A stretch of 64,000 bases of DNA from Halomarina salina. GTDB taxonomy: Archaea; Halobacteriota; Halobacteria; Halobacteriales; Haloarculaceae. Of this stretch, positions 5,702 to 38,499 are shown piece by piece (positions within the stretch are counted from its first letter, which is position 1; every line of letters starts with the position of its first letter). The stretch is from positions 1,550,001 through 1,614,000 of the forward strand of contig NZ_JALLGW010000001.1 of assembly GCF_023074835.1 (NCBI RefSeq), written 5' to 3'. A program made the position numbers and the translations under genes. Below the pieces are notes generated by a model that made no database searches, was not told the DNA's origin, and was given only the letters and a program-made list of their open reading frames with translations.

Positions 5702-5944
5702 TTACGCGGCGTCTACGGACGAGGTCGCCGTTCCACCAGGCGTTGCCGCCTGTCGCCGTCGCCTTCGCCGCCGTCGGAGCGCCCAGAGGACGATGACCAC
5801 TCCCTCGATGCGGGCGACGGTGTACACCCACGGTTTTATCTCCACGTCCTCGCCGTCCTCGACGGCGTAGCCCATCCAGAAGTCCACCATCTTCCGGGGG
5901 AACAGTACCCCGACGAGACCGAACAGCACCCAGAGCCCCATCAT
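5702..5944 (-). CDS. Small membrane protein with two hydrophobic segments
   Basis: The protein is 80 residues long. It starts MMGLWVLFGLVGVLFP, has a second hydrophobic stretch VYTVARIEGVVIVLWAL at about 40-56, and is then followed by a run of nine or ten Arg residues, a cytoplasmic positive-inside anchor. The ATG at 5944 gives the hydrophobic N-terminus; the frame continues upstream but that sequence is low-complexity. This type of two-helix protein (FPRKMVDFWMG, ARIEGVVIVLW) is common in haloarchaea, where function is unknown. It is divergent from the aldehyde dehydrogenase at 6157, sharing a 212-nt upstream region. Confidence 0.65.
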   Translation of the reverse strand: MMGLWVLFGLVGVLFPRKMVDFWMGYAVEDGEDVEIKPWVYTVARIEGVVIVLWALRRRRRRRRQAATPGGTATSSVDAA

Positions 5945-6056
5945 CGAGACCGCTTCGCCGGCGACCCGATTAACTGTTGCCCGACCGTCACTACTGCTGG
6001 TCAGTCGGCGGTTCCGAGGTGCCGTCGTGTCGTGGCCACGTTCCGGCACGGACGGG

Positions 6057-6096
6057 CACTGTAAACCACCGGGTATCCCCGTGGTCACTGTTAACC
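6057..6096 (+). promoter_or_regulatory. Candidate regulator site: 11-bp direct repeat with internal inverted repeat
   Basis: Two near-identical 11-mers, CACTGTAAACC at 6057-6067 and CACTGTTAACC at 6086-6096, are 29 nt apart start-to-start. Between them lies an imperfect inverted repeat (CCACCGGG, TAT, CCCCGTGG). The block is 60-100 nt before the aldehyde dehydrogenase start and 110-150 nt before the divergent membrane-protein start, a position suited to a transcription factor. Operator role is inference. Confidence 0.35.
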
Positions 6097-6156
6097 CCGA
6101 ACCGGCCGAGGCTCCGCCAGCTACGTGGGCACGCGCCCCGTTGTCGGACCACAGCC

Positions 6157-7710
6157 ATGTCACGTGAACACGAGGCAGACGGGAGCGAAGGGGTAGCGTC
6201 GGACATCGTCGAGAAACACCGGTCGACCGCCGAAGCGGCCGTCCCGGAGGAGGAGTACGGCCTCCTCGTCGGGGGCGAGTGGCGGCAGTCGGCCGACACC
6301 GAGACGATGGAGACACTCGACGCGACGACCGGCGAGGTGCTCGCCCGCATCCAGCGCGGGACGGCCGAGGACGTCGACCGGGCGGTGGCGGCCGCCCGCG
6401 AGGCGTTCGAGGGCCGCTGGGGCCAGCAGTCGCCCAGACAGCGCTCGGACCTGCTGTTCGAGGTGGCCGACGCGCTGGACGAGGAGAAGCTTCGAATCGC
6501 CCGCATCGACAGCCTGGAGATGGGCAAGCCCAACCAGCACTCGGCGTTCGTGGACGCGGAGATCATGGTCGAGCAGTTCCGCTTCTTCGCGAGTCTCGTC
6601 CGCAGCGCCGACGAGGGCGGGCTTCCGCCGATGGGAAGCGACAAACTCGCGTACACGAAACGGGAGCCACACGGCGTCGTCGGCCAGATCAGCGCGTGGA
6701 ACTTCCCCGCGATGTTCGTCGGCTGGAAGATGGCTCCGGCGCTCGCCGCCGGCAACACGGTCGTGTTCAAACCCTCCTCGCGGGCGGCGCTCTCGACGCT
6801 CGAAATCGCCTCCGTCGTCGACTCGGTGCTCCCGGCCGGGACGGTCAACGTCGTCACCGGGCCGGGGAGCGAGGTGGGCGACGCCATCACCTCCCACGAG
6901 GACGTCGACAAGGCGTCGCTCACCGGGTCGACGCAGGCCGGGACGTACGTGATGCAGAACGCCGCCGAGACCATCACGCCCGTCTCGCTCGAACTCGGCG
7001 GGAAGAGCCCGAACGTCGTCTTCCCGGACGCCGACCTGGAGAAGGCCGTCGAGGGCACGGTCCTCAGCATCTGGTTCAACCAGGGCGAGCAGTGTACCGC
7101 CGGGTCCCGACTGTTCCTCCACGAGGACGTCTACGACGAGTTCCTCGACCGGTTCGTCGAGCGGACCGAGAACCTCGCGGTGGGCGACCCGCTCGACGCG
7201 ACGACCGACGTCGGCCCGCTCGTCGACCACGACCACCGCGAGGAGGTGCTCTCGTACGTCGACACGGCGGAGGCGGAGGGGGCGACGGTGCGCTACGGTG
7301 GCGGGACCCCCGACGACTCGTCGCTCGACGGCGCGCCGTTCGTCGAACCGACCGTCCTCGAAGGCGTCGAGAACGACGACACGGTGGCGTGCGAGGAGGT
7401 GTTCGGTCCGGTCCTCTCGGTCATCCGATGGTCCGACGAGGAGGAGATGATCGAACAGGCGAACGACACGCGGTACGGCCTGGCGTCGGGCGTCTGGACC
7501 GAGAACGTGGAGACGGCCCACCGGGTCGCGGACCGACTGGAGGCCGGGACGGTGTGGGTCAACACCTACAACGACCTGTTCGAACCGGTCCCCCACGGCG
7601 GGTTCAAGCAGTCGGGGCTCGGCCGCGAACTCGCCCGAGAGACGTTCGAGGAGTACACGCAGACGAAGTCCGTGATGATGAACTTCGGGGACCTCCCCCG
7701 GATGGGCTGA
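6157..7710 (+). CDS. NAD(P)-dependent aldehyde dehydrogenase
   Basis: This is a 517-residue member of the aldehyde dehydrogenase superfamily, which oxidises an aldehyde to the acid with NAD(P)+. The catalytic set is intact: the cofactor/oxyanion Asn in WNFP (Asn182), the general base Glu279 in SLELGGK, and the nucleophile Cys313 in NQGEQCTAGSR; LTGSTQAG forms the Rossmann turn. The C-terminal oligomerisation region with GGFKQSGLGRE is present. I chose the ATG at 6157; the frame stays open for 60 codons upstream through non-coding-looking sequence. About 35 extra N-terminal residues precede the conserved start of the domain. The substrate (betaine aldehyde, semialdehyde, acetaldehyde) cannot be decided. 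It is transcribed alone. Confidence 0.93.
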   Translation: MSREHEADGSEGVASDIVEKHRSTAEAAVPEEEYGLLVGGEWRQSADTETMETLDATTGEVLARIQRGTAEDVDRAVAAAREAFEGRWGQQSPRQRSDLLFEVADALDEEKLRIARIDSLEMGKPNQHSAFVDAEIMVEQFRFFASLVRSADEGGLPPMGSDKLAYTKREPHGVVGQISAWNFPAMFVGWKMAPALAAGNTVVFKPSSRAALSTLEIASVVDSVLPAGTVNVVTGPGSEVGDAITSHEDVDKASLTGSTQAGTYVMQNAAETITPVSLELGGKSPNVVFPDADLEKAVEGTVLSIWFNQGEQCTAGSRLFLHEDVYDEFLDRFVERTENLAVGDPLDATTDVGPLVDHDHREEVLSYVDTAEAEGATVRYGGGTPDDSSLDGAPFVEPTVLEGVENDDTVACEEVFGPVLSVIRWSDEEEMIEQANDTRYGLASGVWTENVETAHRVADRLEAGTVWVNTYNDLFEPVPHGGFKQSGLGRELARETFEEYTQTKSVMMNFGDLPRMG

Positions 7711-36326: not shown

Positions 36327-37112
36327 TCACCCGCCGTACGCGTCGAACGACCGGACCTCGCCGACGGAGGCGGCCGGGTCGGCGTCGAGGTCGTCGGTGT
36401 AGACGACGGCAACGTCGGCGTCGGGTCCGAGGGTCACGTGTTCGCCGACGACGGTCTCGGCGTCCGTCGCGTCCAGAGCGACCGTCCCTCCCTCGACGGT
36501 ACCGACGGTGAACGTCCCGTCGTCCGACCCGACGAACCGTGCGAGGAGCGAAGGGTCGTGGTCGCCACGGCGGACACGAATCTCGGCACCGCTGACGGTC
36601 TCGGCGGTCGAGTCGTCGTGGACGTCGAACTCGAACGAGTCGGCGGCGACGTCGCCCGCATGGAGCGCGCCGTCGACCGTGAACGCGTCCGCGTTCACGT
36701 CGTCGAACCGTCCCACGCCGTCGACGGTCAGCGTCGTTACGTCCGTCAGGCCGCCGACCGCGACTGTACCGTCGAAGCGTGCCCCGGACGCGACGAGGCT
36801 CCCGGCGATCTCGGTCGCACCGTCGCCGTCGACCTCGTGTACGTCGAGGTTCCCTCCGACCTCGGTCGCGCCGTCGAGGTGGACCACGTCGACGTGGACG
36901 ACACCGGCGACGGTGAGCGACCCGTCGGCGTCGAGTTCGCGGGCGTCCACCCGGCCGCCGACGTCCGTCGCGCCGTCCACCAGTACGCGGTCGGCGAGGA
37001 CGTCGCCCGCCACGCTACAGGTCCCGTCGACGTCGAACGTCTCGCAGTCGACGTCGTCGAAGCTCCCGATACCGTCCACGCTGACACGCTCGCCACGGTC
37101 GAGTTCTGTCAT
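36327..37112 (-). CDS. Bactofilin-like beta-helix repeat protein
   Basis: The 261-residue acidic protein consists, in residues about 8-170, of roughly nine tandem units of 16-18 residues, each with a DG and a VGG or VAG turn (for example LDGATEVGGNLDVHEVD, GDGATEIAGSLVASGAR, FDGTVAVGGLTDVTTLT). This is the layout of polymer-forming bactofilins and right-handed beta-solenoids. The C-terminal 90 residues form a separate domain (ARFVGSDDGTFTVGTVEGG). There is no membrane segment. Start ATG 37112. It is divergent from the RHH/His-rich gene, with mirrored TATA-like elements. Cytoskeletal or scaffold function is inference; no structural proof. Confidence 0.65.
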   Translation of the reverse strand: MTELDRGERVSVDGIGSFDDVDCETFDVDGTCSVAGDVLADRVLVDGATDVGGRVDARELDADGSLTVAGVVHVDVVHLDGATEVGGNLDVHEVDGDGATEIAGSLVASGARFDGTVAVGGLTDVTTLTVDGVGRFDDVNADAFTVDGALHAGDVAADSFEFDVHDDSTAETVSGAEIRVRRGDHDPSLLARFVGSDDGTFTVGTVEGGTVALDATDAETVVGEHVTLGPDADVAVVYTDDLDADPAASVGEVRSFDAYGG

Positions 37113-37130
37113 GCTCACACGTGAGTCAGC

Positions 37131-37195
37131 ATATACCTTGAATCTTCGCGCTAGTGTGCGTCGAGCATGAGTATACACGCACAGTTAAGGTATAT
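37131..37195. promoter_or_regulatory. Mirror-image TATA-like elements of a divergent promoter
   Basis: ATATACCTT at 37131-37139 and AAGGTATAT at 37187-37195 are exact reverse complements, placed 19-27 nt from the two start codons (37112 minus, 37213 plus). Each can be a TATA box for its own leaderless transcript, and the symmetry would also suit a shared regulator. A short inverted repeat CTCAC, AC, GTGAG is at 37114-37125. Confidence 0.55.
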
Positions 37196-37212
37196 CGGAC
37201 GCAACCGGTGGT

Positions 37213-38055
37213 ATGAGCAGGCAGATCCGTATCAGTATCGAGGACGACGAAGTGTTCGAGCGGCTGAAGCGCCGGAAGGACGCGCTGGACCTCTCGTGGG
37301 AGGACGTGCTGCGACGGGGTCTCCGGGATAGCTCCGAACCGCCGCGCGGACCGAATCGACCGACCCCACCCAACCGGACGGACCGCGCGAACCGGAGCCG
37401 TGACTCCGAGGAGGGCCGGGACGACCACGGCTCCCGTCGAGGTCCGCGACACCCCCACGGGGGGTACCGGGGCCGCTCACACGCACACGGCTCGCACCGT
37501 AGTCGGGGACGTCGTCACGGCCGCGAGCACACGCGAGACGAGGTACACGCACACCATGCCCACTCGCCGTTCGCCCCCGAGTTCGGGGAGCGACTCGCCG
37601 AGAACATCCGGTCGTCGCTGGAGAGCGCACTCGGTGGGGGGGCGACCGTCGGGTCGTCGGGCGAGTCCCCGCTGTTCGGCGCGATGGGTTCGATAGACGA
37701 CGAGATAGACCGGCTGGAGGAGGCCGAGGACGCAGTGCTGGTCCTCGGTGAGGACCGGGCCGCGAGCGTCCCGCTCCGTGTCGAACTGCACATCGGTGCC
37801 GACGGGATGGACGTCGACGTCGTCGCCGTCCGTACCGGGAAGGACACGGGAGAGATGAACCGGTTCGGCGACGGCGCGCGTGCGGTCGTCGCCAAGCGCC
37901 TGGCACGCGGTGACACGGCGCGACTGGAACTCGCCGACGGTGACGAGACGTACGACGTCCGGCCGGACCTCACGTGGGCGCGTGGCCCGGACGGCGTCCC
38001 CGTCGTCGCGGACGCGGCCATCCGGAGCGTCGTCTTCGACGAATCCGAGGACTGA
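37213..38055 (+). CDS. Ribbon-helix-helix protein with His/Arg-rich linker, paired with beta-helix protein
   Basis: The 280-residue protein has three parts. Residues 1-38 resemble a ribbon-helix-helix DNA-binding unit (RQIRISIEDDEVFERLKRRKDALDLSWEDVLRRG). Residues about 72-118 are strikingly rich in His, Arg and Gly (for example HPHGGYRGRSHAHGSHRSRG), which may bind metal or nucleic acid. Residues about 120-280 form an acidic domain with GERLAENIRSSLESAL, then strands VPLRVELHIGADGMDVDVVAV and TARLELADGDETYDVRPDLTWA. I do not recognise the family. Its divergent partner is the bactofilin-like gene at 37112; the shared mirrored promoter suggests joint regulation. Confidence 0.65.
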   Translation: MSRQIRISIEDDEVFERLKRRKDALDLSWEDVLRRGLRDSSEPPRGPNRPTPPNRTDRANRSRDSEEGRDDHGSRRGPRHPHGGYRGRSHAHGSHRSRGRRHGREHTRDEVHAHHAHSPFAPEFGERLAENIRSSLESALGGGATVGSSGESPLFGAMGSIDDEIDRLEEAEDAVLVLGEDRAASVPLRVELHIGADGMDVDVVAVRTGKDTGEMNRFGDGARAVVAKRLARGDTARLELADGDETYDVRPDLTWARGPDGVPVVADAAIRSVVFDESED

Positions 38056-38214: not shown

Positions 38215-38499
38215 TCAGTCGATGTGGCCTTCGCGGCGGAGCTGGTCGGCGTCCTGTCCGGAGTAGCGCCACTCGATGTTCGCCTTCTCGTCCTGCCAGT
38301 CCCACGGCTCGACGATGACGACGTCGCCCTCGTTGATCCAGGTCCGGTACTTCATCCGACCGGGGATGCGGCCCATTCGGTTCTGGCCGTCCTCGCAGCG
38401 CACGCGGACGTGGTTCCCACCGTTGTGTTCGGTGACGACCGCGAACAGTTCGTCGTCGTTGGGCATGCGGAGGTTCCGACGCCCTGACTCCTCGCTCAT
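38215..38499 (-). CDS. eif1a: Translation initiation factor aIF-1A
   Basis: The 94-residue protein is the archaeal homologue of eIF1A/IF1, with an S1-type OB fold that occupies the A site of the small ribosomal subunit during start-codon selection. Conserved features: [57 protein letters not shown], and NIEWRY. Length and start ([10 protein letters not shown]) are normal. The minus strand has GACTTACCC about 18-26 nt before the ATG as a candidate TATA box. Single-copy essential gene in most archaea, a good marker for orthology. Confidence 0.96.

Follow-up and report, generated by a model that had tools for sequence, protein, structure and literature searches.

The window, by which we mean the whole 64,000-nt stretch of DNA analysed here, contains two divergent genes, P0001 and P0002, which together seem to form a small on/off switch, complete in itself, for the gene of a cytoskeletal protein. 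P0001 is predicted to encode a bactofilin and P0002 a ribbon-helix-helix (RHH) factor. We consider it probable that the RHH factor acts on phased repeats to control both its own gene and the adjacent bactofilin gene, most likely as an autorepressor. The locus looks self-contained because the repeated motif is found only there in each genome. Little is known about the regulation of archaeal cytoskeletal proteins. A linked regulator together with a predicted, sequence-defined operator at a single locus, in genera among which are cultured Halobacterium and Haladaptatus, makes the control of a bactofilin directly testable.

The divergent pair and its relatives

The features of the locus are collected in Table 1. 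The two start codons are separated by 100 nt (37113–37212) if P0001 starts at ATG 37112, which bears out the divergent arrangement described in an earlier, sequence-only reading of this DNA. The list of open reading frames offers an alternative P0001 start, GTG 37178, in the promoter/operator region; it is unlikely because it falls within the conserved repeats and the relatives do not start there.

Table 1. Coordinates of the two genes and of the elements between them (positions in the window)
Feature	Position	Strand	Remarks
P0001, bactofilin-type β-helix protein (predicted), 261 aa	36327..37112	minus	ATG at 37112
Palindromic half-sites GCTCACACGTGAGTC directly upstream of P0001 start codon	37113..37127	.	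direct reading
P0001 core promoter region AAGATTCAAGGTATAT (minus-strand)	37131..37146	minus	contains left mirror element, 37131–37139
Degenerate putative operator TGTGCGT-N4-CATGAGT (11-bp phase), then inverted ACACGCACA	37155..37183	plus	
P0002 core promoter region TTAAGGTATAT	37185..37195	plus	contains right mirror element AAGGTATAT, 37187–37195
P0002, 280 aa	37213..38055	plus	RHH (predicted) + disordered linker + C-terminal α/β domain

Judged by its repeat period, its structural model and its family matches, P0001 appears to be a divergent bactofilin-type β-helix protein, as the sequence-only reading had proposed when it described a solenoid of 17-residue units. The period of 17 residues appears in the autocorrelation of glycine (0.40 and 0.45 at lags of 17 and 34 residues), and the AlphaFold2 model, built from seven sequences, is an unbroken β-helix with strands throughout (pLDDT 93.5), comprising about ten coils and a capped C-terminal part. 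A structure prediction lacking a β-solenoid would have counted against the sequence-only reading, which thus withstood this check. The Pfam model Bactofilin (PF04519) is matched by six of the seven family members (three of four in the first family set, best E 2.4e-14), and is not matched by P0001 itself. The top PDB sequence match of the family profile is Bactofilin A, at a weak E of 0.019. Foldseek searches with P0001 gave nothing significant against the PDB and, in a viral library, two matches below 0.001 with TM-scores below 0.3, which are not informative. The relatives range from 228 to 326 aa and differ in coil number. P0001 has no recognisable membrane-anchor N-terminus. Two further Pfam bactofilins are encoded elsewhere in the genome, one of which (L030) has no significant similarity to P0001.

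P0002 consists of an N-terminal domain (residues 1–38), a disordered linker (about 42–118), the second half of which is rich in His, Arg and Gly, a helix (122–140) and a C-terminal α/β domain (161–274). In the AlphaFold2 model, two helices (12–25 and 29–35) follow a short strand-like segment; the RHH strand itself is not formed in the monomer model. Among the relatives, R3, R6, D11–E13, L25–W29 and R35–L37 are invariant. On this pattern, the secondary structure and the repeats described below, we infer that the N-terminus is an RHH domain, and the RHH partner of the sequence-only reading is thus supported. No family in Pfam or NCBIfam scores above its cut-off with P0002; the N-terminus of the family resembles PF02697 VAPB_antitox weakly, at E 0.015–0.054, which is under the Pfam cut-off. 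The large C-terminal domain is conserved, and the linker is free to vary in length and composition. Attempts to assign a fold to the C-terminal domain gave weak matches only (PAS/LOV and MrkH; best E 0.026), and no assignment was retained.

Full relatives of P0001 were searched for in 391 genomes of the class and were found in seven (G000, the window's own, G110, G137, G149, G221, G378 and G420), with G149/L034 and G420/L044 counted as one genome each. Addition of G092 and four Haladaptatus genomes brings the number to 12, and in all 12 the adjacent divergent neighbour is a P0002 relative. Adjacency in other genomes, which the sequence-only reading had named as a check, therefore holds in the 11 other genomes with the pair, namely five Halobacterium, four Haladaptatus, one metagenome-assembled genome (MAG) and one of a further genus. 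Weaker matches of P0001 in G050, G234, G317, G329 and G421 are other β-helix or bactofilin-type proteins, with no P0002 relative nearby. Side observations in two of these genomes are a 124-aa orphan ORF (L090 of G317, 6812-7132), β-helix/bactofilin-like and without an RHH neighbour, and a protein (L091 of G050, around 5831-6235) that has 'EGDVYITNSSIYGRVKAEG' repeat units, begins in a Tat-like manner and ends in a long poly-Asp stretch. An antisense match in L008 was spurious. A viral origin of the pair was rejected, since no relative was found in the viral contigs searched.

Of the 28 RHH proteins in our tree, those paired with a bactofilin are set apart as one clade by a branch with support 99/96, and the two main groups of this tree recur in that of the bactofilins. 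Other P0002 relatives, from Halosimplex, Halovenus, several MAGs and further genomes, have no bactofilin next to them. Most relatives outside the clade are followed by a small gene in the same direction that encodes a DUF7347 helix-turn-helix protein (E 7.8e-30 in L045). The relatives outside the clade have the same repeats and never a bactofilin partner, so that one RHH family appears to regulate different output genes in different lineages. RHH–DUF7347 loci such as L045:6001-7051, L042:6001-6989 and about ten similar ones, in which the two genes often overlap, are possibly two-regulator operons.

The window belongs to a haloarchaeal genome of 4.46 Mb, which shares its GTDB family with Halosimplex and Halovenus. 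The neighbours of the pair are an operon for a sugar-type ABC transporter on one side and eIF1A (38215-38499) on the other. In Halobacterium G110 and G137, eIF1A also adjoins the pair, and a YGR210-like GTPase gene and a HAD gene are nearby; the pair is inverted relative to eIF1A between the window and Halobacterium L024/L025. Congeners of the window's genome retain eIF1A, in some cases together with the GTPase gene and other neighbours, and tblastn found no trace of the pair in them; in one (G001), the transporter gene and eIF1A are separated by a gene that reads, in translation, as TFB-like. Because the congeners keep the neighbours without the pair, the pair would have been gained or lost as a unit. 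The shared synteny points tentatively to an old locus with later losses.

Repeats and promoters in the intergenic region

Upstream of P0002 relatives lie direct repeats of TGTGAGT, in two or three copies at 11-bp spacing, which the sequence-only reading had missed. In the bactofilin pairs they sit between both promoters. The TATA-like box of P0002 relatives typically begins about 30 nt before the start codon, with TTA invariant at the TATA position, and roughly 11–14 nt separate the end of the repeats from this box; the distance to the AT-rich box of P0001 is similar. The pair TGTGAGT-N4-TGTGAGT occurs in 15 of 21 upstream regions, against 0.0 expected from shuffles that preserve mononucleotides only. 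The exceptions include the QH2 MAG, with one exact copy, and the BinSanity MAG and G219, with no clear tandem. The full element in the window is degenerate (TGTGCGT-cgag-CATGAGT-at-ACACGCACA), with three mismatches to the exact repeat. DUF7347-type loci carry an additional inverted ACTCACA at the start codon.

When 17 whole genomes were scanned with the exact pattern ACTCACA-N4-ACTCACA, 14 matches were obtained in 12 of them, every one within the RHH locus; the reversed-pattern control gave one match. A composite operator pattern matched once per genome in seven pair genomes, including that of the window, with none in the control. Note that the composite pattern was written from these loci and thus matches them by construction; the only information lies in its being absent elsewhere. 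When one mismatch was tolerated, five matches lay outside the locus, which does not exceed the 11 of the control, so there is no sign of a wider regulon and this possibility was rejected. As a side observation, G378 has an additional exact repeat pair inside the RHH coding region (L061, near 6847-6864; G378:C1:1821846-1821863).

The palindrome directly upstream of the P0001 start codon resembles the start-codon ACTCACA of the DUF7347-type loci, and is possibly a second operator site. The sequence-only reading had also drawn attention to mirror elements in the gap. The elements ATATACCTT/AAGGTATAT are indeed exact reverse complements, and a 9-bp inverted pair arises in 1.1% of shuffles of a 100-nt gap of that composition, where mononucleotides only are preserved. 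The shared control role did not stand: ATATACCTT is missing in every one of the 11 relatives that have the pair and was rejected as a shared regulatory element. The mirror elements lie just on the gene side of the relatives' TATA position, about 7 nt nearer the start codon, and probably belong to the core promoters of the respective genes, or arose by chance.

Proposed regulation and alternatives

We propose that P0002 is most likely a dedicated local autoregulator of itself and of the bactofilin. Its dimers would bind side by side on the 11-bp-phased TGTGAGT repeats, all on the same DNA face, and from this position between two divergent promoters they would control both genes. Autorepression would be relieved by some signal acting via the C-terminal domain, which may have a sensing function. 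P0001, which is predicted to form filaments and whose presumed role in the cell is that of a soluble scaffold, would be kept at a limited level or produced only in certain conditions. Since the C-terminal domain and the repeats are retained across the RHH family while the partner gene changes, P0002 appears to be a regulator first and not a structural subunit of the scaffold. Co-regulation, which the sequence-only reading had suggested, is deduced from the shared gap. That reading had also envisaged a scaffold and a DNA-binding partner acting together; this is possible, but a regulator role is the simpler reading because the same RHH family mostly pairs elsewhere with an unrelated DUF7347 gene. 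Against the autoregulation proposed here, the window's operator has the mismatches noted above, P0001 misses the Pfam model and has no significant Foldseek match in the PDB, and the RHH match is under the cut-off; moreover, a factor other than P0002 might in principle occupy the repeats. DNA binding by P0002 itself is a prediction.

P0002 might instead activate both promoters from the repeats, which lie just upstream of TATA/BRE and not over them; archaeal activators typically bind upstream of promoters (PMC8406309), so that the main site leaves room for activation. However, the inverted ACTCACA at the start codon of DUF7347-type loci is in a position suiting repression, and a similar palindrome is present at the P0001 start in the window; these start-proximal sites favour repression, which we infer to be the mode of control, and we regard activation as unlikely. 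It is quite improbable that P0002 instead anchors a chromosomal site to a bactofilin scaffold, with the repeats as attachment site and P0001 positioning it, as in SegB or bactofilin–ParABS systems. Archaeal RHH proteins do act as site-specific segregation proteins, some SegB orthologues having a β-helix, and bactofilins position ParABS in Myxococcus (PMC12284271); the repeat is also at one locus per genome. Yet there are only two or three repeats, placed beside TATA boxes, and in this RHH family they also occur where a bactofilin is lacking, mostly beside a DUF7347 gene, which means that their presence is independent of the scaffold. In addition, the neighbours examined (ABC transporter genes, eIF1A, DUF1059, FilR1-type, DUF5789 and YGR210-like GTPase genes) include no ParA/SegA-like gene. 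A combination in which the site-bound RHH protein also binds the bactofilin and tethers the locus to a filament scaffold, as a ParA-free DNA-anchoring device of haloarchaea, strikes us as highly unlikely.

The sequence-only reading had further suggested a metal-binding partner, and the His fraction of the linker is 0.10 in the window and reaches its highest value, 0.13, in Haladaptatus. A metal-responsive system, in which this linker senses or stores metal, is nevertheless very doubtful: the His fraction spans 0 to 0.13 across the family and is 0–0.03 in several Halobacterium and most DUF7347-type relatives, the linker varies as described above, and P0002 has no Cys. As the His-rich linker is not conserved, a role in metal binding is unsupported. 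Least credible is a toxin–antitoxin pair with P0002 as a VapB-like antitoxin. The weak N-terminal likeness to VAPB_antitox speaks for it; against it, no PIN or other toxin is adjacent, the partner P0001 is a predicted β-helix protein, and the C-terminal domain of P0002 is large and conserved. P0002 was accordingly not assigned to VapB/VapBC.

Comparison with known systems

Our literature search, which covered open-access papers, found no description of such a bactofilin–RHH pair. RHH repressors of the Arc/CopG/MetJ type bind short direct repeats, spaced by about one helical turn, by their own promoter. Judging from sequence, the P0002 family likewise has a phased repeat motif at its own promoter, as expected of an RHH transcription factor, and differs from these repressors in its long disordered linker and extra C-terminal domain.

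Among bactofilins (PF04519), the likeness of P0001 lies in the β-helix of about 17-residue coils and in the matches of most family members to the Pfam model; P0001 differs in scoring below the Pfam threshold, in lacking a membrane-anchor N-terminus, and in having a divergent RHH partner and dedicated repeats. Haloarchaeal members of this class include the halofilins HalA/HalB of Haloferax volcanii. BacE/BacF of B. subtilis, in a putative operon with yhbD (PMC4627819), are an earlier example of bactofilins accompanied by another gene.

CdrS/CdrL of haloarchaea are also RHH transcription factors beside a cytoskeletal gene, and CdrL reproducibly binds only one site on the chromosome, which lies upstream of cdrS-ftsZ2 (PMC7439475). 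CdrL, however, has a double zinc ribbon and targets ftsZ2, whereas P0002 has a different C-terminal domain and the bactofilin as its predicted target; with no Cys, no zinc-ribbon match, and a bactofilin and eIF1A in place of cdrS-ftsZ2 as neighbours, P0002 was rejected as a CdrL. SegB of Sulfolobales resembles P0002 as an RHH protein with sites upstream of its own cassette and with a link to the β-helix, since Metallosphaera orthologues contain β-helix repeats (PMC12284271). SegB is paired with the ParA-like SegA, whereas here the β-helix is a separate protein; with no ParA-like gene among the neighbours scanned, an assignment to SegB/SegAB was rejected. CdrL and SegB thus come closest among archaeal RHH proteins with a link to the cytoskeleton or to segregation, and neither shares its defining features with P0002.
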